From Deltaproteobacteria bacterium (lineage in GTDB: Bacteria; Desulfobacterota; Syntrophobacteria; BM002), in assembly GCA_019309045.1 (NCBI GenBank), contig JAFDGZ010000035.1:1-34408 (forward strand): 34,408 nt of DNA, given 5' to 3'. Below, in pieces: positions 2,701 through 26,655 of this stretch; positions within the stretch are counted from its first letter, which is position 1, and the number at the start of each line of letters is the position of its first letter. The notes beneath the pieces are model-generated. The model searched no databases and was not told where the DNA came from. It was given only the letters and a program-made list of their open reading frames with translations. Made by a program: the position numbers and the translations under genes.

Positions 2701-4077
2701 TCAGTGGAGAACCGTGTTGGTGAGAAAATTGACGTCTTCTTCGGCAAGGTTTCTGAAGCGAACTCCCACAGCATAGATGAGATTTTCCTGACTGGGCTCT
2801 GGACAAATTTCTAATCTAACCATTTCAGCCTCTACCAGAAGGCCGTAGTGATGTTCTGGAATTTCTATGGCAAGCTGAACTATCTCGTCCGGGTTCGGCA
2901 ACTCCTGGCAGTGGATCAGCGCCCCAGTCAGACTGATATTCTTGACTTCTATCTGGTATGAACCCTGGGAGGTATGCATGCTGCCAGGCCAAGACACTGA
3001 CACTCGTGAGTATTCTCTTCTTTTTGCTGACTTCAACACGCTTTGCACCTTTTTCTTATTGGCAAGTTTGCCTTTGTTAGATAAAGCAAAAGTCTTCAAT
3101 TCTACCTGACACTGTTTAAACCGAAAATTTCCCTGGTTCCAGCTCGCCAATTCTTCTGCGGTCTTCTTTATTTGATAATTCAGCAGTTTTTGCAAAACAC
3201 TCTGACTCACATAGCCGCTATCCAGCAGGATCTCTCCCAGTCGTTTGCCAGATTCCCGGGCCTTCTCGAGGGCTTGCTGCAGCTGTTTCGGAGAGATCAT
3301 CTTTTTGTGCAACAGTATGTGACCGAGTCGTAAATGCTCATTTCCGGTAGCCGCTATTATGCTGCCCCGCTTCAAACAGATGGCTCTCCTCTTCCGTCCT
3401 TGTTGAAGAGAAAGAATGCCACTCTTCTTTTGCGAACACAGTATTCTCAGCACAGAAGGAACATCCCATGAACTCAATTTCCCCGCCAATTCTACGGCAT
3501 CTGTAGAAGCTGGCGATACCCCGAAAGGCTGCCAAATGACCTCAGGAGACGATCCGCCTGGCAGAGACTCACAGGGATGAGCCTCTGAAGTGGGTTGTTG
3601 AAAAGGAGGATGTGAGTCTAAGAGGTAAAAGCCTATTATCTTTTTATTGTGTTCACTTAACTGTTTAAATTCAACGCCGACATAATTCCCTTTGACAATT
3701 TTAACTATCGCTGCAGTCGTGATATGAGATTTATGAATATCATCTAATTTAAAATCCAATAGTATAATATTATCAATATCTAACGTATTTCTTGTTACTG
3801 TCGTGAATCCTAGACCAGCTCTAGAAATATCTTCAATATTTACTCTGCCTATAACACTATTATCCGGGTAAATACGCTGAAAAGTTCCAACGATATTCAC
3901 ATTCTTTCTATAACATTGCCGCTTCTCTACTTCTACGCTATATTTATTCCCACAGTAACACTTAATTTCGACTATTTTGGTTTTATTATGATTTTTTACA
4001 TTTACTTTGTTCAGCTTACCACATTTAGAACAGCTGCTGTATCCAGTGTCACTCTGATTTATGAAAAGCTTTCTCAT
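2701..4077 (-). CDS. zinc ribbon - PilZ - DUF4388 - PilZ fusion protein
   Basis: A probable cyclic-di-GMP effector of 458 residues. Domains in order: a CxxC...CxC zinc ribbon (Cys16, 19, 40, 42); a first PilZ domain with RQCYR (53-57) and DISRAG (83-88); a linker near 155-195; a DUF4388/PATAN-like domain (about 200-260); a helical segment like the N-terminal domain of type II secretion ATPases (about 260-325); and a second PilZ domain with REYSR (354-358) and NISLTG (380-385). Both PilZ domains keep the RxxxR and (D/N)xSxxG residues that contact cyclic-di-GMP in known members. I prefer the ATG at 4077, preceded by AAGGTGA, over a TTG at 4113. The DNA for residues 1-155 is visibly AT-rich while the remainder is not, which suggests that a stand-alone ribbon-PilZ gene was fused on. 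Confidence 0.85.
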   Translation of the reverse strand: MRKLFINQSDTGYSSCSKCGKLNKVNVKNHNKTKIVEIKCYCGNKYSVEVEKRQCYRKNVNIVGTFQRIYPDNSVIGRVNIEDISRAGLGFTTVTRNTLDIDNIILLDFKLDDIHKSHITTAAIVKIVKGNYVGVEFKQLSEHNKKIIGFYLLDSHPPFQQPTSEAHPCESLPGGSSPEVIWQPFGVSPASTDAVELAGKLSSWDVPSVLRILCSQKKSGILSLQQGRKRRAICLKRGSIIAATGNEHLRLGHILLHKKMISPKQLQQALEKARESGKRLGEILLDSGYVSQSVLQKLLNYQIKKTAEELASWNQGNFRFKQCQVELKTFALSNKGKLANKKKVQSVLKSAKRREYSRVSVSWPGSMHTSQGSYQIEVKNISLTGALIHCQELPNPDEIVQLAIEIPEHHYGLLVEAEMVRLEICPEPSQENLIYAVGVRFRNLAEEDVNFLTNTVLH

Positions 4078-4205
4078 TACTGTGGAATCACCTTTGTAAA
4101 GCCACTTTCGCAAGAATCTCTACACAGATAGCAAAAGAAACTCACTACTTTCAGACTTCACTCTTTATCTACACTGATCTCACTTCGTCAGCCTCTCTCA
4201 TCAAT

Positions 4206-4952
4206 CTATACTCTTTGGACAGCGACCTCCTCATCTTTTCTCACAGCAGCCTCAAGCATCACTTCCGTTGTACTTATTTCTTCTACTGCCCGTGTATCAA
4301 AATACACTTCACAGTCATGATACTCGAATTCTCCTTCGCCCCAGAACAGCAGGTCGAACACTATCTCCCGTACCTGGTGACGGATGAGATCTTTCAAGGT
4401 ACTTTCATCCACACACCCCATGGCGAGCAGCACATCCCCTACTCTCTTTCCTGACTCTCTCGCCTTTTGCAGGACTTCACTGAGTTTAGCCTCTGAGATC
4501 AATCCCTTGGCAAACAGGAGTTGGCCCAGCCGCACACCGCCCAAACCACTCGCTGCAATAATCTTGCCATCTTTCAGGCAAATTGCCCTGCGGTCTTTGC
4601 CAGAAACAAACTGCAAGGTGCCCGTCTTGCCTTCTGAAGAAAGAATCTGGAGAATCACAGGAAAGCCAATGGATTTCAGGTTTCCTTTCAAATCCTCCAT
4701 TTCCGGACAAGCAGGATGAATCGGCAGGCTGAAAGGATTCCAGGAAAAAGACTCGGTGGAGAACGATCTGTTGTTCCAAGCATTTCTTGCTTCTTCAGCG
4801 GTATTTTTGATAGGACCCGTGGCACCACATAGGCAAAAGACCGCAGAACTGCCATTCCTGTCAGAAGCGACAGCTAGCTGCCTCCTGCCTTTTTCATATT
4901 CCCGAGCACCACAAAAAGGGCATGACCTCAGCTGATTTTCCCTGGTTCGCAT
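4206..4952 (-). CDS. Lar-like zinc ribbon fused to DUF4388 domain
   Basis: A 248-residue cytoplasmic protein. Residues 8-62 form a zinc ribbon with CPFCGA (11-16) and CLCGATGP (40-47), then TAEEARNAWNNR. This is the layout of the phage/prophage Lar (restriction alleviation) ribbon family. Residues 90-150 match DUF4388 (the GTLQF...RRAICLKDGKIIAASG pattern), followed by the same helical KARESGKRVGDVLL segment as in the gene at 2701-4077, so the two are paralogous over about 120 residues. The ATG at 4952 is chosen because GAGGAG lies seven bases upstream (4960-4965). The gene follows the PilZ gene at 4991-5527 by 38 bases and is probably co-transcribed. A signalling or scaffold role is inferred; nothing links it to restriction beyond the ribbon. 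Confidence 0.75.
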   Translation of the reverse strand: MRTRENQLRSCPFCGAREYEKGRRQLAVASDRNGSSAVFCLCGATGPIKNTAEEARNAWNNRSFSTESFSWNPFSLPIHPACPEMEDLKGNLKSIGFPVILQILSSEGKTGTLQFVSGKDRRAICLKDGKIIAASGLGGVRLGQLLFAKGLISEAKLSEVLQKARESGKRVGDVLLAMGCVDESTLKDLIRHQVREIVFDLLFWGEGEFEYHDCEVYFDTRAVEEISTTEVMLEAAVRKDEEVAVQRV

Positions 4953-4990
4953 TGCTTTACTCCTCGCTGTGCACCCCTTTACCAAAAGAA

Positions 4991-5527
4991 TCAAAGTCCA
5001 TGGTCCCAGGCAGACCAGGTTCGAGAATTACTAACGGACGACTTCTGTTGTCCACCTGAGGTTTTCTCCTCAAATAACTTGTCACGACGTTCGGCGATCC
5101 TGCGGAGATCATTTACGACCAGCGCCAGAAAGCGGCTGCTTTCTCTGGGCACCTGCACAAATTTGATGGCGATTTTGTAATGGGGTTCCCTGCTTCCAGC
5201 ATGCTGGAAGTGACGCGACCGTACCACTTCTGCAACCATTTCCACGAATCTTTCCGAGGCATTCATTGTTATTTTCACAACATCACCCAGGGGTAGCGGC
5301 TGCACACAATCCAGCAGGGCACCAGTCAAGCTGATATTTACCGTTTCAGCCTGGATGGTGCCCATGACGGTCTCGATGGCAACAGGCCAACGCACGTCTA
5401 CTCTGGCGTCCAACCGGCTGCGCTCCATATTTCTCCCATGGTACTCGTCCTTTGCAATGAGGACCAATACCAAGAGCACATAACAAAAAGGCAACCACCA
5501 TGCTGAAAGCATGTCCAGGCCTACCAT
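4991..5527 (-). CDS. membrane-anchored PilZ domain protein
   Basis: A 178-residue protein with one predicted N-terminal membrane helix (about residues 5-25, rich in Leu/Val/Trp) and a cytoplasmic PilZ domain containing RLDAR (37-41) and NISLTG, nearly the same block as the second PilZ domain of the gene at 2701-4077. The tail after about residue 150 is polar and probably disordered. It likely senses cyclic-di-GMP at the inner membrane. The start is uncertain. ATG 5527 lies directly after TAGAGG, which is too close for a normal binding site. An internal ATG 33 codons later (MERSR) has GGGAG at good spacing and would give a soluble form without the helix. The upstream neighbour is a 55-residue membrane protein whose stop lies three bases before this ATG. 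Confidence 0.75.
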   Translation of the reverse strand: MVGLDMLSAWWLPFCYVLLVLVLIAKDEYHGRNMERSRLDARVDVRWPVAIETVMGTIQAETVNISLTGALLDCVQPLPLGDVVKITMNASERFVEMVAEVVRSRHFQHAGSREPHYKIAIKFVQVPRESSRFLALVVNDLRRIAERRDKLFEEKTSGGQQKSSVSNSRTWSAWDHGL

Positions 5528-18207: not shown

Positions 18208-18552
18208 TCAGTGATAGTCATGGGTGCCCAGAACTATGGGGACCTGGAATTTATTCTCCAGTATCTGGGCAAACTGTTCAGCACTGCCATAAGGGCAATC
18301 CGGCTTGGCGTTTGCCAGACAGGAACTCAGATAAATGGCATCCGGCTTCATCTCCGAAAGCTTCATGGCCATGCCTACGTTGGCGGCTAGACTCCGTCCT
18401 GGACAGGTGCATTTTACAAATGAGACGACCTGGGAAGGCTCATCAAAACTACCCTCACCAAGGCTGGCAGCTTTCAGACAGCGCCACTCACCCGGACAGC
18501 CATAGCCGCTGTCCATATAAGCACCACAGCCAATCACCATAACCTTCTTCAT
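18208..18552 (-). CDS. CGGC domain-containing protein
   Basis: 114 residues starting MKKVMVIGCGAYMDSGYGCPGEWRC. A Cys-rich start, a central FVKCTCPGRS segment and a later LSSCLANAKPDCPYG block match the CGGC family, putative metal-binding proteins of anaerobes with no proven role. ATG 18552 is fixed by GGAGGAGG directly upstream; longer readings are not supported. It is the last gene of a minus-strand run after the methyltransferase (gap 104 bases) and may be read through from it. Confidence 0.85.
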   Translation of the reverse strand: MKKVMVIGCGAYMDSGYGCPGEWRCLKAASLGEGSFDEPSQVVSFVKCTCPGRSLAANVGMAMKLSEMKPDAIYLSSCLANAKPDCPYGSAEQFAQILENKFQVPIVLGTHDYH

Positions 18553-18656
18553 AGCCTCCTCCTTTCTGCAGTTTTTCAGGTCGTCCTGCTCCCAACTTGC
18601 CTCTATTGGACCACAACTGGCATTTGAGAGCAGGCAACACACGCCAAATGGCCTCT

Positions 18657-19436
18657 TTATCGTTTACAGCCAGTGGCAAGCATCCGTTTGTTCATGAATC
18701 CGTAGTCACCTTTCCTCCTGTGGGGCGCAAAACGGGTGCGTACGATGATGCTCTCAAAAGCGGCCTCTCTTAGGAGAGCTTCTAGAGATTCCGGGAAATA
18801 TAAGCGCATTGCATAGGTACAGTCCCGCACTAACCCCCTTTTCTTGCTGACAACGACTTCACGCGCCAGCACCCTGTCATGCTGCAGTTCCCGCTCGCGG
18901 CAGACTATGATATCATCCCCGATCTCGTGCCAGGCTGAGGAAGTAAAAGACTCTTTTACTGCTCTGCCGTTTGCCACGTCCACCAGGATAGTACCGCCAG
19001 GCCGCAGCACCCTGTTGGCCTCCGCCAAAATTCTGGCATCGGCTTCAGGTTCAGCCGCATAGCCGAGTGAGTTCCCCATTATGAGTACATGGTCAAAGGT
19101 TGCAGCCGGCAGTCCGGTTTCTCTGGCGTCACCCCGGGTAAATTCCATGGAATAGCCAAATTCTGCCGCCCTTGCTTTGGCAATCTCCAGGAGGCAATGC
19201 GAGTAGTCGAGCAGAGTACAGCCATTGAACCCTCTAGCACAGAGCTCCAGGCTATGTCTGCCGTGGCCGCCACAGAGATCCAGGATCCTTTGTCCCGGCC
19301 GTATTTGCAACAACTCCTCTATGATATCCACCTCCAGCCTGGTAATCTCCTCATCGCACACCGATCGCGCATCAGTGAGAAGGTAGACCTCGTCGAAGAT
19401 CTCTTTCCACCAGTCAGGGTCCACTCTTATGTTCAT
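18657..19436 (-). CDS. class I SAM-dependent methyltransferase
   Basis: 259 residues. The SAM-binding motif I is ILDLCGGHGRHSLELCARG (about residues 51-69), the acidic strand-2 motif is in LLDYSHCLLEIAKAR, then GDARE for motif II and FDHVLIMGNSLGY for the post-I region, with the usual RPGGTILVDVANG. A substrate-binding C-terminal part follows (about 165-255). The substrate is unknown. The ATG overlaps the stop of the ATP-grasp gene in an ATGA, so the methyltransferase is translationally coupled to it. The likely substrate is therefore the product, or a precursor, of the ATP-grasp ligase. Confidence 0.88.
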   Translation of the reverse strand: MNIRVDPDWWKEIFDEVYLLTDARSVCDEEITRLEVDIIEELLQIRPGQRILDLCGGHGRHSLELCARGFNGCTLLDYSHCLLEIAKARAAEFGYSMEFTRGDARETGLPAATFDHVLIMGNSLGYAAEPEADARILAEANRVLRPGGTILVDVANGRAVKESFTSSAWHEIGDDIIVCRERELQHDRVLAREVVVSKKRGLVRDCTYAMRLYFPESLEALLREAAFESIIVRTRFAPHRRKGDYGFMNKRMLATGCKR

Positions 19437-20818
19437 GGCGCATCCGGGCTGGAGCCGAAATCAAACAAGCCGTCCGAGGCAATAATCGCTGCTGAGCCGC
19501 CCCATGGCTGCAAACGGGCGATCTCCAGTTCCTCTTCCTCGATCTTGACCATGTGGTCAAGCTCCCCTGCCAGCCACATCCTCTCCAGTTCCAGACAGTC
19601 GGCCCACAGGGCGGCACAGTACTGTTCGAGAGCCTTGAGTTGGGCGGCGGTTATCACTCTGGGCCGCAAAGCGATTTTGATAGGTCCGAGCAGGTAGGTA
19701 AAGTCGTGTTCCAGGGCCAGTTGCTTCTGCCGCTCCACCACCTGGCGCAGATCGCCATAGTCCATGGCGGCAATGGCCTCGTTGATTCGCGACACCGCTT
19801 CTCTCACAGACATCTCCGATTGCAGTACCGCCAGCGGCTGCACCCCGCCACCGCTGCCCACATTGGTGGGCACCCCTCCATACCTGCCCAGGAAACCGAA
19901 CATGCCCCTGGGCCCAAAGAGGCAGCGAAAGTCAGTCTGATACCGCTCTACTGTCACTGTTCCTTCTCTCAGGGCTGGGATCTCTTCCGCCCAGAGTTCC
20001 AGCGGAATTTTTTGCTGCACAATGTAGTTTCCTTCCTTGAGGGCGAGATTGATGGCTTCATCCACGTCATTGTTCACCATTCCGACCCTGACTCCCTTGC
20101 CCGAGTATCCCCTTTCAGGTTTGAGTACGAGTTCGTCCCAGTGGTCCCGAGTCCATTCAACAAGATCGTCTATCTGTTCACCTGCGGGCCCCTGCGTTCG
20201 GCGAGCATAAAACTGGCGAGTCCAGGGAGTTCGCCTGACCGTTTCTGGATGAAAGCGGTCGCGCCCCCAGCCAGTCACGACCTCGAACATGCTCTTCACA
20301 TTGATGGGCTCGGTGCCACGCGGGTTGATCACTCTCCCTTCCTTTACCGCCTGCAGCAACGGCTGCAAACCATGCTTGCGGTGTAGATCGAGGAGCACAT
20401 CAGTATTGAAATCCATGAACACTATCGACACCGGACGTCCACGCCAGCACACCCTGCCATTTTTCAGCTCGAGCTCCTGTGGCGCCAGCAAAGCCCCTGA
20501 CACCCCCTCGACGGCGTTCAGCCGTTCGGCAAGATTTCTGTTCTCTGTCACATCTTCGAGCGTCTCTTGTTCCGCCACCACTGCAATCAACGCCGGCTTG
20601 TCTCCCTCACGCCTCCGGTGCGCCTCTACCAGCATCTCCACAAAACCTTCCACCGGGAAAAGCAATGGATGATCGAAATCTAGCTGTACCTCGAAAGGCC
20701 GAATTTTTTGCAGTTCAGCCCATATTTCCTTGCCAATGATCTGGGTGATGCGCTGGTAGTCCCAACCGCCCGGACTGCCAAGGTTCCATTCGGAATGGTA
20801 TCCATAGAAATCTCTCAA
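19433..20818 (-). CDS. ATP-grasp superfamily ligase-like protein
   Basis: 461 residues. The segment ELVLKPERGYSGKGVRVG (about 229-246) is the Lys/Gly-rich ATP-binding loop of the ATP-grasp fold. The acidic/basic segments around VTVERYQTDFRCLFG and FLGRYGGVPTNVGSGGGVQPL probably supply metal and phosphate ligands. The N-terminal 200 residues are a substrate-binding part I cannot place. ATP-grasp enzymes form amide or related bonds through acyl-phosphates, so ligation of a carboxylate to an amine is the likely chemistry. The start is TTG at 20818, with GGAGGAG seven bases upstream inside the last codons of the peptidase gene, only three bases after its stop. It overlaps the methyltransferase start. 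Family name not recognised. Confidence 0.75.
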   Translation of the reverse strand: MRDFYGYHSEWNLGSPGGWDYQRITQIIGKEIWAELQKIRPFEVQLDFDHPLLFPVEGFVEMLVEAHRRREGDKPALIAVVAEQETLEDVTENRNLAERLNAVEGVSGALLAPQELELKNGRVCWRGRPVSIVFMDFNTDVLLDLHRKHGLQPLLQAVKEGRVINPRGTEPINVKSMFEVVTGWGRDRFHPETVRRTPWTRQFYARRTQGPAGEQIDDLVEWTRDHWDELVLKPERGYSGKGVRVGMVNNDVDEAINLALKEGNYIVQQKIPLELWAEEIPALREGTVTVERYQTDFRCLFGPRGMFGFLGRYGGVPTNVGSGGGVQPLAVLQSEMSVREAVSRINEAIAAMDYGDLRQVVERQKQLALEHDFTYLLGPIKIALRPRVITAAQLKALEQYCAALWADCLELERMWLAGELDHMVKIEEEELEIARLQPWGGSAAIIASDGLFDFGSSPDAP

Positions 20819-20821
20819 TGC

Positions 20822-22474
20822 TTACTCCTCCATGTGCTCTTTTCCCCTGCCATCCATGCTGGCAAATCTCTTGTCTATGAGATGAAAAGGCAGCTCGCCA
20901 CCAGTCAGCATGTTGTGGTGAAATGCAGCATTGCCAAAGCGGCGGCCATATTTTTCCTTCAGTTTCATGATCTCGAAGCGTCCAAGAGTGTAACAGAGTT
21001 GGTAGCCCGGATTCAGGCGGAATCTATGAATCTGGTTTACCGCCTCTTCTGGACTGAATCCAGTAGTGGTGAGCAGCTGAACTCCTTGCTCGAAGCTGAG
21101 CAGACCCGTTGCCAGGCCCACATCTATTTGACATCTGGCCGCTCTCCATAGGCGCCGCTTGCAATCCACTAGTTTGTCCAGAGAACTTTCCACATAGCCG
21201 TAATCGCCCAGAAGGGATTCTGCATAGTATGCCCAGCCCTCGTAGAATAGCGGCGACTCGATTTGACGTCTCACTGGATTGGCCAAAGTTCTCCGCATGG
21301 CGTCCAGCAAGTAATGTCCTGGAATCGTCTCATGGGCAGTAAGAAACTTGAATTCCTTGTGAAGCCTCTTTCTGAGGAGATCTGTGGCGGCGGCAGCTCT
21401 GTTGCCTGGCAAGGTGGTGGTAATGTAGAAGTAGTCCTTCTCCGCTGCATCATCGCTGAAGGCGGCGGCAAAAGAAGCTGCACTGCGAACTGATTTCAGA
21501 TATCTGGGGGTTTCACAAACCAGCAACCCGCCGTCTGCCATGCCAAGGCCAAGTCCCTGTTCCAGGAAAAACTGCTGCAGGGACTCCACCTCCTGCCGGT
21601 ACAGGGTTATGGTATCCCTTTCTTCTGCTGCGGCGGGAAAGTAATCCTGGTAAAGCGACTGCCATGATTTCGAGCTATCTACCCGGTGGCGCAATCTTTC
21701 CAGCTCTTCGAGATTCTCCCTCCATTCTTCCTGGGCAATCTGAAAAACCTCGGGCAAGGAGCGGTTGGAGAGGAAATGCTCCCGCAAAGTGCGTTCCACA
21801 GCCATCCCAGAGAAGCCCTTGTCTGGAACTGGCGAGAGAGATGTGAGAAAACTTGCAAACTCAGCGAGGCTTGCCGCAACCGCCTCAATTCTCTGCTGCA
21901 AAGTCCGCCCTCCTTCTGCGGCGAGACCGGCAGAAATCTCCTCCAGGTAGGCGCGGCAGTCTCCTATCATCAACAAGGCGGCCTGGTGATAACTTGCCGG
22001 TACAGATTTTATGTTTTCTTTGCCCTGGTGGAGAAGTCTGGGAATTGTACTCAACCGTGATTCAACCCTGCTTCTGCGTTCATCACTGCCGGCAGCCGGC
22101 TTTGTCAGAGCATGATCGAGGCCGATGAAGGCAATCTTGAGATAAAGCAGTGGATTGTGCTGCCAGGAGCGGTTCTCAGCAAACTCCAGCAAGACACCGG
22201 CCACACTACCAAGCAGCAAGACCTTGTCCAGATGCGCTTCCAGATCCCTTTCCTGGGTCCTCACTGCTCGAAAGTCTTCTTTAAACCTCCTCAAGGCAGC
22301 CACAACTTCCTGGATCTTTTGCCGACCCAAATCATCCAGCTCTTCATAATATCGCCTGGCAGCCTGGGCCCGGGGAAGAAAATGGAACTCATCGCTGGCG
22401 CACATCACCGGGAAACACCGCGCCAGATATTCGAAGTAGTCTGTGGCCAGAGTGTGCACAGCAGAGACAGTCAT
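20822..22474 (-). CDS. DUF885-type metallopeptidase-like protein
   Basis: 550 residues, soluble, no signal peptide. The zinc motif HETIPGH (381-387, HExxPGH form) and the downstream ESPLFYEGWAYYAE with the third-ligand Glu are the DUF885 signatures, a gluzincin-like group related to M3/M32 peptidases. The N-terminal 200 residues are helical. The ending NPGYQLCYTLGRFEIMKLKEKYG is also typical. Cytoplasmic location suggests peptide processing or salvage. It is the first gene of the unit peptidase -> ATP-grasp -> methyltransferase, and its final codons hold the binding site for the next gene. ATG 22474 has no clear binding site. Two 82-bp repeats lie upstream (22551-22797). Confidence 0.85.
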   Translation of the reverse strand: MTVSAVHTLATDYFEYLARCFPVMCASDEFHFLPRAQAARRYYEELDDLGRQKIQEVVAALRRFKEDFRAVRTQERDLEAHLDKVLLLGSVAGVLLEFAENRSWQHNPLLYLKIAFIGLDHALTKPAAGSDERRSRVESRLSTIPRLLHQGKENIKSVPASYHQAALLMIGDCRAYLEEISAGLAAEGGRTLQQRIEAVAASLAEFASFLTSLSPVPDKGFSGMAVERTLREHFLSNRSLPEVFQIAQEEWRENLEELERLRHRVDSSKSWQSLYQDYFPAAAEERDTITLYRQEVESLQQFFLEQGLGLGMADGGLLVCETPRYLKSVRSAASFAAAFSDDAAEKDYFYITTTLPGNRAAAATDLLRKRLHKEFKFLTAHETIPGHYLLDAMRRTLANPVRRQIESPLFYEGWAYYAESLLGDYGYVESSLDKLVDCKRRLWRAARCQIDVGLATGLLSFEQGVQLLTTTGFSPEEAVNQIHRFRLNPGYQLCYTLGRFEIMKLKEKYGRRFGNAAFHHNMLTGGELPFHLIDKRFASMDGRGKEHMEE

Positions 22475-22811: not shown

Positions 22812-24026
22812 TTAGTAAGGAATCATCAGATCAGCAATGCCAAAACGATCACTGAGGAGCCTGTCCTTGTAAGCAGCCACATCCACCCTTCTCAGCATCA
22901 GGCTTCGATAGACTCCCGCTCCTCTGATATCTCCGGTCAGTCGGAAGCCGACGATACGACCGTCTTTGAGAAATATCTTCCGCAACACATTGCCGCAGCG
23001 AAAGCGCAGCTCCTCATCTGCATGCATGTGTCCAACCGCCACCAGGGGCAGTCCTAAATGCTTCAGGCTGTTCATACTCTCGGCACCCTCATAACGTGTT
23101 TCTTTGCCCATGATGTTGGCAGCAACAATGCGACCCTGGGCCACTGCATTGGGGAATATGGCATGGACATACCTTTCTCCTGTGAGCAGGTCGTGCGTTT
23201 CCGCCACATCGCCTGCTGCGTACACATCACCTCTGCTGGTCCGCAAGTAGTCGTCAACCACCACACCCCACCCCAGGTCGATTCCAGAACCATTGAGAAA
23301 TTCCGTGTTCGGCTTGACTCCACTAGCTGCCACGTACACCTCTCCTTGCACTATTTCCCCGGAGTCAAGTCGAACACCCTCCACTTCCCTTTCTCCTTCA
23401 AATGTCACTGCCTTTGTATCGAGACGAACTTCAACACCGCGTGCTTTCAATGTGCCCAGGGCCATATCTGCAGTCTCTCTATCCAGCACCCGAGGCATCA
23501 CCCTGTCCTGCATCTCAATGATTGTCACTGCCAGGCCAAGCTGCCGCAACAGCAAAGAAACTTCCATGCCAATAAAACCCGCACCCACAATGACAGCACT
23601 GCCCAGCTGCCCTTGACGCACCTTTTCCATCAATGACCTGGCAGCAGTCAGAGACTTGAAGTTGTAGATTCCTGGCAGGTCAGAACCCTCAATTGGGGCA
23701 TACAACCTGCTGCCAGTGGCAATGACCAGGGTGTCATAGTGAACTTTGCGGTTGTTCGCCTCCACTACATCATGATTGTCAGTCTCCACTGCTTGGATAG
23801 AAATCCCTGGCCGATAATCTATTCTCAACTGATCACAGAACTCCTTTCCTTTCCAAAAAAGAGTCTCTTCTCTTCCGGATACCAGATAATCTACTATGGC
23901 CGGGGGGGCGTACGGCGGGAAAGGTTCTGCGGCATACAGAACAATCTCACTGTCCATGTCGTAATTGCGCAGAGTCTCAGCCACAGTAAGGCCGGCCGGG
24001 CCGGCTCCAATAATGACTACGCGCAT
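22812..24026 (-). CDS. NAD(P)/FAD-dependent oxidoreductase of the CO dehydrogenase cluster
   Basis: 404 residues. An N-terminal FAD-binding GAGPAGLTVAE (7-17), the VIATGSRLYAPI linker, a second dinucleotide motif VGAGFIGMEVSLLLR (about 147-161) for NAD(P)H, and the AAGDVAE flavin motif (about 270-276) define a pyridine-nucleotide-disulfide-type reductase without redox-active Cys pair, like rubredoxin or ferredoxin reductases. Placed directly after cooF-cooS (53 bases after cooS), it probably transfers electrons between CooF and NAD(P). GGGAGG upstream of ATG 24026 supports the start. Such a cooF-cooS-reductase arrangement is known from other anaerobes. Confidence 0.88.
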   Translation of the reverse strand: MRVVIIGAGPAGLTVAETLRNYDMDSEIVLYAAEPFPPYAPPAIVDYLVSGREETLFWKGKEFCDQLRIDYRPGISIQAVETDNHDVVEANNRKVHYDTLVIATGSRLYAPIEGSDLPGIYNFKSLTAARSLMEKVRQGQLGSAVIVGAGFIGMEVSLLLRQLGLAVTIIEMQDRVMPRVLDRETADMALGTLKARGVEVRLDTKAVTFEGEREVEGVRLDSGEIVQGEVYVAASGVKPNTEFLNGSGIDLGWGVVVDDYLRTSRGDVYAAGDVAETHDLLTGERYVHAIFPNAVAQGRIVAANIMGKETRYEGAESMNSLKHLGLPLVAVGHMHADEELRFRCGNVLRKIFLKDGRIVGFRLTGDIRGAGVYRSLMLRRVDVAAYKDRLLSDRFGIADLMIPY

Positions 24027-24079
24027 GACCTTGCCTCCCTGAGGTCATATCTTACCCAGCCAGGGCTAGCTGAGCTTGG

Positions 24080-26029
24080 CTAGGCCACCGCCGGGCTCTT
24101 TTCCCTGCCCCTTTCAGGCAGGGGAATTGTTTGCGGATCATGATAAGGCAACCCCAATTCCCTCCGTTTAACCTCAATGTGTCGACGAATCAGGCTGGCG
24201 GCCCGCTCGGCATCAGGTTCAATGGCAAAGGTAGCTCCCACCACATCCTCAAGACCTTCAGCCAGAAGCTGCACCACATTCTTGCTGCCGAAGATAGGGG
24301 GCTGCACCCCGAGTACAGTGTAGATTCCGCTGGCAACGGCATACGTTCCAATGGCAGCCGCCTTTTCCGAATACCACTCGGGCGCGGCCGCGGCCAATGG
24401 CAATTGGCTGATATCCACATCCAACTGATTGGCCAGGGCCGCTGCCAACACCAAAATGCGGGTATTGTCAACACAGGACCCCATATGCAGAACCGGAGGA
24501 ATACCCAAGGCCTTACAAATGCCGGCCAGTCCAGGACCAGCCATATCCGCCGCTTCGGGCCTCATCTGGCCGGCCTTGCCGTTGGCGACTGCGGCGCACC
24601 CTGTAACCACTACCAGGATATCGTTTTCAATGAGTCTGCGGCAGAGCTGCACATGGCCAAAGTCCTGCTTGATTTTTGGATTGTTGCAACCAACAACCCC
24701 CACCGCACCTCTGATCTTGCCATCCTTGATAGCAGCAAGCAGCGGTTCGGGGCTACCTCCCAGGGCTTCCACTATTGCCTCCACTGAAAAACCCGCCATC
24801 ATTGGTATTGGCTCCCCGGGAATGTATACTTTGTCTGCAACCCTTCCTGCATAGGCTTGCACAGCCCGACGGACGATCTCCTTGCCGATCTCTATACCGC
24901 GGTGCGGATCAAAGGTTATGTGAATGGCGCCCGGAAACTTGGCCTTGTCAAAGGTCGAGATCACTGCGGTGTGAAAGCATTTGGCAACATCGGTTACCGA
25001 AGGCATGATGCACTGGTAGTCAACAACCATAGCATCCAAAGCACCAGTCATTATAACCAGCTCCTGAATCAAATGATTGCCCGCCATAGGAATGCCGCGT
25101 CTCATCAGCAGTTCGTTGCCAGTACAACACAGCCCCACCAGGTTGATGCCCGCCGCTCCTTGCTCCTTTGCCAGATTCAGCAGCTCCGGATCCTGAGAAG
25201 CCTGCACTATCACGTCCGAGAGCACCGGGTTATGCCCGTGCAGGGCGATGTTCACTTCGTCAGCTTTCAGCACTCCCAGATTCATTTCTGAGCTCACTGG
25301 TTTGGGTGTGCCAAACATTACATCCGAAAGCTCCGTGGCAACCATGGAGCCGCCCCAGCCGTCGGACAGGCTCGTTCGCAGACAGTGAAGCAAGATGTTG
25401 ACGTAGTCGTTGTCTACGCCCATGTGTGTTCGGTGCAGCATCTCCACGTTCTCCCTATCGATGCCCCGAGGTAGGATGTCTAGCTTCTGCCAGACTGCCA
25501 GACGCTTGGCTGGGACGCGTTTGAGAAAACCCAGAGATCCTTTCCTGGTGCCATAATCTTCCATTATGGCCTCAGCCACCTCCAAAGCAACTTCCCTGGT
25601 AGAACGGTCCTCCAGCTCAACACCATAGTCCGCAGCAATAGCTTTCAGCTTTCCTTCGTCGGCGATTTGGTATCCTGTTGTCTCACCCGCTGCAGTGGCG
25701 TGAAACACCTCGAGGATATCGCGCCCGTGGTCCGAGTGAGCCGAAGCTCCAGCCGCAATAGCACGCCCCAGGTTGCGCGCCACAATTACGTCAGCGTCAG
25801 CTCCGCAGACGCCCTTCTGCGGGCCATCTCCGAAGGGGTCCACCCTGCAGGGTCCCATGGCACAGTTGCGGCAGCTCAGTCCCAGCGAGCAGTAGCCGCA
25901 CTGGGGCTCTTGCTTGGCCAGTCGATCCCACACGGTCTCGATGCCTTCCTCGCTGGCACGCCTCAACATGGCCTGACTGTCTTTGTGCACACTCATACGC
26001 TGAAAATCGACCGGGAAAATCGTTTTCAT
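24080..26029 (-). CDS. cooS: anaerobic Ni-CO dehydrogenase catalytic subunit
   Basis: Oxidises CO to CO2 at the Ni-Fe-S C-cluster; 649 residues, full length. N-terminal cysteines C44, C47, C53, C56, C61 and C75 supply the D and B clusters. C-cluster ligands are seen in ALHGHNPVLSDV (His), GLCCTGNELL, GVVGCNNPK, VTGCAAVANGKAG and HMGSCVDNTR. The start overlaps the cooF stop in an ATGA. No acetyl-CoA synthase genes are near, so it is a monofunctional CODH for energy, redox balance or detoxification, not visibly part of the Wood-Ljungdahl enzyme. No cooC nickel-insertion ATPase and no CooA-type CO sensor are in the window. Confidence 0.97.
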   Translation of the reverse strand: MKTIFPVDFQRMSVHKDSQAMLRRASEEGIETVWDRLAKQEPQCGYCSLGLSCRNCAMGPCRVDPFGDGPQKGVCGADADVIVARNLGRAIAAGASAHSDHGRDILEVFHATAAGETTGYQIADEGKLKAIAADYGVELEDRSTREVALEVAEAIMEDYGTRKGSLGFLKRVPAKRLAVWQKLDILPRGIDRENVEMLHRTHMGVDNDYVNILLHCLRTSLSDGWGGSMVATELSDVMFGTPKPVSSEMNLGVLKADEVNIALHGHNPVLSDVIVQASQDPELLNLAKEQGAAGINLVGLCCTGNELLMRRGIPMAGNHLIQELVIMTGALDAMVVDYQCIMPSVTDVAKCFHTAVISTFDKAKFPGAIHITFDPHRGIEIGKEIVRRAVQAYAGRVADKVYIPGEPIPMMAGFSVEAIVEALGGSPEPLLAAIKDGKIRGAVGVVGCNNPKIKQDFGHVQLCRRLIENDILVVVTGCAAVANGKAGQMRPEAADMAGPGLAGICKALGIPPVLHMGSCVDNTRILVLAAALANQLDVDISQLPLAAAAPEWYSEKAAAIGTYAVASGIYTVLGVQPPIFGSKNVVQLLAEGLEDVVGATFAIEPDAERAASLIRRHIEVKRRELGLPYHDPQTIPLPERGREKSPAVA

Positions 26030-26655
26030 CGCTCACCTCCCCCTTGCGTTGCTTCCTCTGCAGATGCACCCCAGGCTCGCCAGGCATGCACTGTCTCGGG
26101 TACCGCTGGAGCCTGGCCCTCCATCATGGTTGTGGCAGCAACAACTGCGTAGGACTCACGCAACCTTCCTGCTTTCAGGAGTTCGTTCAGCTCGCCAAAC
26201 ACCAGGGCCTCCGCCTTGCAGGCTTCCACACAGGCAGGGATATCGCCACGGCTGAGACGATCCACACAGCCGTCACACTTCACTGCCACCACCCGTTGGG
26301 GGCCTGTCTCTGCTACGGGATAGTAGGTCAGCACATCAAAAGGACACACCATAGCGCACATGGCGCAGGCAATACATTTTGTTGCTGTGATGAGCACCAG
26401 ATCATGATCCTGCTGCCGATGGATGGCGCCAGTAGGGCAAACCTGCTCACAGGGAGCCGGGTTGCAGTGACGACACTTGTTTGCAAATGAGGTATTGTAC
26501 GTGGGGCCGGGTTCTACGTGGATTCGCCGCCTGGGCAGAGGCTCTTCCCAGAGCGCCAGTGACACCTCTTTACTGGAAGAGTGTGCCACTGCACAGGCGA
26601 TTTCGCACTGGTGACAGCCAAGGCAACGTTCTGGATTGACGAATACAGTCTTCAT
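26026..26655 (-). CDS. cooF: 4Fe-4S ferredoxin-type electron transfer subunit (CooF-like)
   Basis: 209 residues with four cysteine groups for about four [4Fe-4S] clusters: CLGCHQCEIAC (11-21), CRHCNPAPCEQVC, CIACAMCAMVC and CDGCVDRL...PACVEAC. This is the CooF/HycB/DmsB-type ferredoxin plan. It would accept electrons from the coupled CooS and pass them to the FAD oxidoreductase. The last 30 residues are extra and Ala/Thr-rich. GAGGAGGGGG lies just before ATG 26655. The 132-base leader back to the MCE gene contains a GCCTGC/GCAGGC inverted repeat, but no CooA-like site was recognised. Confidence 0.93.
   Translation of the reverse strand: MKTVFVNPERCLGCHQCEIACAVAHSSSKEVSLALWEEPLPRRRIHVEPGPTYNTSFANKCRHCNPAPCEQVCPTGAIHRQQDHDLVLITATKCIACAMCAMVCPFDVLTYYPVAETGPQRVVAVKCDGCVDRLSRGDIPACVEACKAEALVFGELNELLKAGRLRESYAVVAATTMMEGQAPAVPETVHAWRAWGASAEEATQGGGER

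Follow-up and report, generated by a model that had tools for sequence, protein, structure and literature searches.

A co-inherited bacterial gene trio encoding a DUF885 peptidase, a circularly permuted ATP-grasp ligase and a methyltransferase

The locus and its translational coupling

The subject here is a set of three minus-strand genes in a 34,408-nucleotide stretch of DNA from Deltaproteobacteria bacterium (GenBank assembly GCA_019309045.1, contig JAFDGZ010000035.1), the whole of which is termed the window. The first specifies a 550-amino-acid DUF885 metallopeptidase (20822..22474, from ATG at 22474 to TAA at 20822), and its HETIPGH motif was read directly from the sequence. The second specifies a 461-amino-acid ligase, assigned on its motifs to the ATP-grasp enzymes and circularly permuted (19433..20818, from TTG at 20818 to TGA at 19433). 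The third encodes a class I S-adenosylmethionine (SAM) methyltransferase of 259 amino acids (18657..19436, ATG start at 19436).

The junctions are tight. The TTG of the ligase gene is exactly three bases (GCA) past the peptidase stop codon, in the same frame as the peptidase, and the GGAGGAG-like sequence at the Shine-Dalgarno position is in the peptidase end, ATG GAG GAG TAA GCA TTG. Directly read, this ribosome-binding site together with its 3-nt spacer occupies 20818..20834 of the minus strand, within the last codons of the peptidase gene. At the second junction the ligase stop and the methyltransferase start share the 4 nt ATGA (19433..19436, minus strand, also read directly). The ligase genes of other genomes start with TTG, GTG or ATG at the aligned place, giving M-x-x-F-x-G-Y-H-S-E-W-N, and because they align there the TTG start in the window is supported. 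The coupling reported in a preliminary description of this DNA is confirmed throughout: coordinates, three-base gap, binding site in the last codons and ATGA overlap.

Conservation and co-inheritance

A scan of contigs across GTDB with the single ligase sequence as query gave no relatives; with a ligase alignment as query it succeeded, giving 178 loci. Gene order was read in the best 80 of these, a set that favours close relatives of the window ligase, and the order peptidase, ligase, methyltransferase was intact in 66. The remaining 14 comprise ten loci that end at a contig edge and four that otherwise deviate, among them two in which the peptidase gene is on a different contig and one that holds the ligase twice. 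Gaps between the genes are often below 40 nt. The adjacency of the three genes is not due to chance, because the same order recurs in many families at 44-75% ligase identity. More distant ligase copies from a phylum-wide search (44-54% identity) mostly retain it too. The doubt expressed at the outset, that the genes might be neighbours in this genome only, is thereby removed; they are conserved neighbours.

Of 60 near genomes, 20 hold a ligase relative; so do 24 in a 395-genome sample of the phylum, where four of the relatives are distant cousins. In that sample, where a peptidase above 400 bits and a methyltransferase above 300 bits were counted as close, a close peptidase occurs in 19 genomes, every one with the ligase, and of the 21 genomes that have a close methyltransferase, 20 also encode the ligase. 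The P value of this co-occurrence is about 1e-31, a figure that ignores genome relatedness and is inflated by it; the genomes concerned span many families. Pairwise divergences of the three proteins are also correlated (r 0.45-0.63, against a maximum of 0.23 on permutation). The trio is thus co-inherited, with a patchy distribution among bacteria that mostly belong to sulfate-reducing lineages. Ligase and methyltransferase form the core of the cassette; the peptidase gene, first in the operon, is now and then absent or located elsewhere in the genome.

Some loci are unusual. One (L138:4823-10595) has the order ligase, peptidase, ligase, so that the ligase is present twice, and a methyltransferase was not found there; at another (L105:8001-9503) the ligase copy carries an insertion holding two in-frame stop codons and may be inactive or misassembled. 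An 870-amino-acid open reading frame that resembled a ligase fusion was spurious, created by a stretch of N (genome G012), and an in-frame TGA considered as a selenocysteine codon (genome G025) is merely an ordinary stop codon overlapping the methyltransferase start. A link to sulfate reduction was not convincing: dsrA is present in 21 of 31 trio genomes and in 121 of 247 genomes of the phylum sample (P 0.057, the genomes overlapping and being related). Carriage of the trio by plasmids or phages found no match, PHROGs included, and among the anti-phage defence models in PADLOC mad2 alone was matched, partially and through a methyltransferase domain.

The ligase

No Pfam model matches the window ligase at E<0.1, and its match in NCBIfam is marginal. 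The Pfam CP_ATPgrasp models (PF04174 and PF14403) match only 6 of 29 family members, the best at E 7.6e-5, and the gathering cut-off is not reached. The sequence nevertheless has the ATP- and magnesium-binding motifs of ATP-grasp enzymes: the lysine of LVLKP, a glycine loop, D-x-R, R...TN..GGG and E-x-N. Invariant in the 29 sequences are K233, G237/S239/G240/G242, D296/R298, R312, T318/N319, G323-325 and E10/N12. The AlphaFold2 model (predicted local distance difference test score, pLDDT, 89.6) gave 38 matches to PDB entries at E<=0.001, all ATP-grasp or ATP-grasp-like by description. Foldseek placed human glutathione synthetase first, followed by RimK, synapsin, a glutathione-synthetase-like effector, YjfC and YgiC. 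On conserved motifs and predicted fold, then, the protein is placed in the ATP-grasp superfamily, with glutathione synthetase, YgiC and YjfC as the nearest folds.

The earlier guess that the enzyme resembles glutathionylspermidine synthase stands in part. In its favour are those folds and a profile match to the putative glutathionylspermidine synthase 3N6X, with which, as with PF14403/PF04174, the trio ligase has the ATP-binding and E-x-N motifs in common. Against it are the scores below the Pfam cut-offs and the permutation described below. Glutathionylspermidine synthetase is moreover bifunctional, with an amidase domain and with glutathione and spermidine as substrates, whereas the Pfam scan of the trio ligase revealed no second domain.

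Circular permutation

In canonical ATP-grasp domains, such as those of RimK and Ddl, an E-x-N-x-x-P-G metal motif closes the domain at its C-terminal end. The trio ligase has its E-x-N near the N-terminus, in H8-S-E10-W-N12-L-G-S-P16-G-G18-W19 (20762..20797, minus strand), where H8, E10, W11, N12, G14, P16, G17 and G18 are invariant (29 sequences) and residues 8-18 look like the canonical motif. In the nearest relatives a segment of about 130 residues lies ahead of E-x-N-x-x-SPGG; in the trio ligase its counterpart is C-terminal. This C-terminal segment (residues ~332-461, 19436..19825, minus strand) is the counterpart of the first ~135 residues in the relatives and ends with the invariant D449 of SDGLFDFG.

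The relatives in question include ligase cousins of about 30% identity encoded by four genomes of the phylum. In one cousin match, query residues 332-430 were placed upstream of residues 61-340. When the trio ligase profile was cut at residue 332 and rejoined, this permuted profile was collinear, as a single domain, with three cousins (L072 12-458/12-466; L071 13-460/21-474; L069 7-405/7-413), whereas the natural-order profile matched the same three as two domains in swapped order. Conversely, a cousin profile matches the window gene in swapped order (profile positions 190-463 at 19835-20644 and 3-104 at 19529-19819), as it does the ligase gene of another genome, G086. Because collinearity is attained only after the cut at residue ~332 and the cousin profile matches swapped, the trio ligase is, on its sequence, a circular permutant relative to its nearest relatives. 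It is predicted to begin between the aspartate-bearing and the E-x-N-bearing strand, while in the cousins and 3N6X the C-terminus follows the GGG motif.

The match to 3N6X improved from E 0.09 with the natural profile to E 4.5e-5, collinear, with a combined permuted and cousin profile; the cousin profile alone gave E 0.0017, so that the inclusion of the cousins accounts for part of the gain. Invariant in the joint permuted alignment are the E and N of E-x-N, GG, the D449 aspartate and the ATP-site lysines and glycines. Compared with PF14403/PF04174, where a helical segment is followed by E-x-N, the central part and a C-terminal GGG, the trio ligase has the segment before E-x-N moved to its C-terminus. 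The order in the cousins is presumably that of glutathione synthetase, judging from general knowledge of that enzyme and a weak match to GSS22.

The gene for one of the non-permuted cousins (L069:8462-12707) is immediately followed by a PmbA/TldD-family metallopeptidase gene and by a second frame that looks similar, another pairing of ATP-grasp and peptidase.

The methyltransferase and its fused relatives

The methyltransferase matches Pfam PF13649 (Methyltransf_25) at 63.5 bits (cut-off 27). It has the motif I of class I SAM methyltransferases, LDLCGGHGRH, and a family-specific motif, WWxxxFDxxYLxTDAR. Among solved structures 9ri2 comes closest (112.9 bits), followed by glycine sarcosine N-methyltransferase 5gwx (71.6 bits), the best-matched solved enzyme of known function. 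The NCBIfam model for glycine sarcosine N-methyltransferase gives 39.9 against a cut-off of 350, however, and the model NF041820, for a methyltransferase of daptide ribosomally synthesised and post-translationally modified peptides (RiPPs), gives 45 bits against a curated cut-off of 175.

Scores in the phylum sample fall into a trio group (319-413 bits), a second group (254-297 bits) and, next, only 143. In nine of the ten members of the second group the methyltransferase is the N-terminal domain of a frame of 632-750 amino acids whose other half is a Ddl-type ATP-grasp, as called by a family scan of two of the nine. The methyltransferase domain of these fusions is the nearest relative of the trio methyltransferase, with 36-44% identity and 265-293 bits, where the next group reaches 143. 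The fusions are at L183:5471-7585 and L188:5296-7227, with relatives at L181, L182, L184, L185, L186, L187 and L189. They differ from the trio in that their ATP-grasp is of the canonical D-Ala-D-Ala-ligase type and not permuted, and in having no DUF885 gene. An M32 carboxypeptidase gene directly follows the fusion at two loci (L181 and L184), in two genomes of one family, a local neighbour that is suggestive only. The methyltransferase lineage is accordingly tied to two different ATP-grasp ligases and, because it accompanies both the permuted ligase and the Ddl-type enzyme, a shared amide-type substrate is supported. Neither this link to a second kind of ATP-grasp nor the circular permutation was part of the preliminary description.

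The tenth member of the second group is unfused and lies directly downstream of two SET-domain genes (L190:4939-6642).

The peptidase

The peptidase matches PF05960 (DUF885) at 185 bits (cut-off 32.4), with the metal motif present. H381-E382-x4-H387 and E412 of YEGWA are invariant in 26 relatives, and these four residues are the probable metal site. Its AlphaFold2 model (pLDDT 92.4) matched three DUF885 structures, 3u24, 3o0y and 3iuk, at template-modelling (TM) scores of about 0.7-0.75 (3u24 at 0.75), and has family, fold, HExxPGH and EGWA in common with them. Weaker fold matches were to angiotensin-converting enzyme (ACE; 9qap, E 4e-4) and then to the M32 family (5giv, E 0.09). Two of the three solved proteins are described as lipoproteins, whereas inspection of the trio peptidase, which is in a ligase operon, revealed no obvious export signal. 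No other DUF885 gene was found in the genome from which the window comes. No paper title among those listed under DUF885 pointed to a functional study.

Proposed pathway and alternative explanations

The three genes are probably one pathway cassette for ligating, methylating and trimming a small peptide-like metabolite. The action of all three enzymes on one peptide-like substrate, proposed when the locus was first described, is still the best reading, given the conserved order and the near-perfect co-occurrence. By the family chemistry of glutathione synthetase, YgiC/YjfC and Cp1B, the permuted ligase would activate a carboxylate as an acyl phosphate and join it to an amine, giving an amide. 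The methyltransferase would then methylate the same amino-acid- or peptide-like compound, either the product or a precursor of it, and its nearness to glycine/sarcosine and peptide N-methyltransferases makes nitrogen the most likely site. The peptidase, presumably cytosolic, may supply the acceptor or donor peptide, or trim or recycle the product. No gene for a precursor accompanies the cassette, so that a small metabolite is a more probable product than a ribosomal peptide.

Several points weigh against this proposal. The sequence does not reveal substrate or product, and genome relatedness inflates the co-occurrence statistic. The peptidase was undetected in a 94%-complete genome (G015) and in a metagenome-assembled genome (G435), both of which have the ligase and the methyltransferase. 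The fold matches of the ligase are partial (TM about 0.45), its profile match to 3N6X is modest (E 4.5e-5) and mostly to the ATP-binding part, and the distance of the methyltransferase from the N-methyltransferases is large.

A named system with this trio was not found. The nearest parallel in role is fungal Cp1B, a stand-alone ATP-grasp enzyme with a fold related to glutathione synthetase, and with YgiC and YjfC as structural relatives, which forms the amide bond of the E-64 pseudopeptide outside nonribosomal peptide synthetases (PMC12568646). The likeness lies in the role of a stand-alone ligase: the ligase cousin profile matches Cp1B (9cjn) at E 0.039, which is not significant, and its pathway partners, an oxygenase and an amide bond synthetase, are unlike those in the trio, permutation not being reported for it (PMC12568646).

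Protein modification is the alternative that survives best, and it appears unlikely. Here the peptidase would expose or remove terminal residues in a protein of the cell, and what the ligase attaches there, an amine or an amino acid, would be capped by the methyltransferase, comparable to tubulin tyrosine ligase and carboxypeptidase and to the graspetide loci of branches 7 and 8, where an ATP-grasp is tied to peptidases and a precursor was not found nearby (PMC8939145). Such precursor-less loci, the weaker likeness of the peptidase (nearest DUF885 in fold) to ACE and M32 carboxypeptidases, and a ligase fold near RimK and YjfC/YgiC are consistent with it. The branch 7 and 8 enzymes are graspetide ATP-grasps, however, found with several unrelated peptidase families, and permutation is not described there (PMC8939145). 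TTLL6 appeared in the ligase profile search at E about 1 only. No conserved target protein was found beside the cassette, the patchy spread (24 of 395 genomes, distant cousins included) is unsuited to a housekeeping target, and the methyltransferase is nearest to small-molecule methyltransferases.

Distinctly improbable is a graspetide-like RiPP whose precursor is encoded elsewhere, with the ligase linking side chains through amides or esters, the methyltransferase modifying the peptide and the peptidase cutting its leader. Graspetide loci do combine ATP-grasp, methyltransferase and zincin peptidases (PMC8939145), and a PmbA/TldD-family gene adjoins the distant non-permuted ligase cousin mentioned above. 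However, the segment order of the trio ligase is not RimK-type, and there is neither a conserved transporter nor a C39 peptidase beside the trio loci. The short precursor open reading frame looked for since the first description did not materialise: in the 800-bp flanks of 88-100 loci none is conserved beyond one genus, a distant precursor being possible.

It is more improbable still that the cassette is degradative or detoxifying, the peptidase cutting an external peptide-like compound whose pieces the ligase and methyltransferase conjugate. The peptidase being the first gene, and the weaker DUF885 matches in eight ligase-negative genomes of the 395, would fit; a conserved importer or regulator was not found beside the trio, and ATP-dependent ligation plus methylation would be unusual for degradation. 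Nothing was found in favour of three unrelated genes adjacent by chance, a reading refuted by a gene order and a co-occurrence that hold across many families.

A wider possibility may be raised tentatively. The trio may represent a previously undescribed kind of pathway in anaerobic bacteria, for a natural product or a cofactor, built on a new topological variant of ATP-grasp with its termini between the two metal-ligand strands, and sharing its methyltransferase lineage with the independently assembled methyltransferase-Ddl pathway. One methylated amide metabolite might then be made by two non-homologous ligases. An ATP-grasp family for which the natural sequence has no Pfam model or above-noise solved relative gains a three-gene context, a predicted fold and a circular permutation, and a probably methylated amide metabolite is pointed to in sulfate-reducing and related lineages. 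Because Desulfospira joergensenii DSM 10085, a species in culture, carries the cassette (locus L143), the cassette is open to test.

Neighbouring genes in the window

Downstream of the trio is a gene for a CGGC-domain protein (18208-18555), for which ATG at 18555, behind AGGAGG, is a likelier start than GTG at 18642; a GC-rich hairpin follows the gene. Its suggested membership of the pathway did not hold: it is absent from other trio loci and is a local gene. Further families beside the trio are either recurrences within a single genus or generic signalling and transport families.

Upstream, and separate from the trio, 22812-26655 contains a cluster for carbon monoxide dehydrogenase (Prismane/CooS family), an iron-sulfur protein and a flavin adenine dinucleotide/nicotinamide adenine dinucleotide oxidoreductase. 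Elsewhere in the window, a Lar-type restriction-alleviation zinc-finger domain is fused to DUF4388 (4206-4994), and its neighbour (2701-4113) is a fusion of DUF4388 and PilZ.

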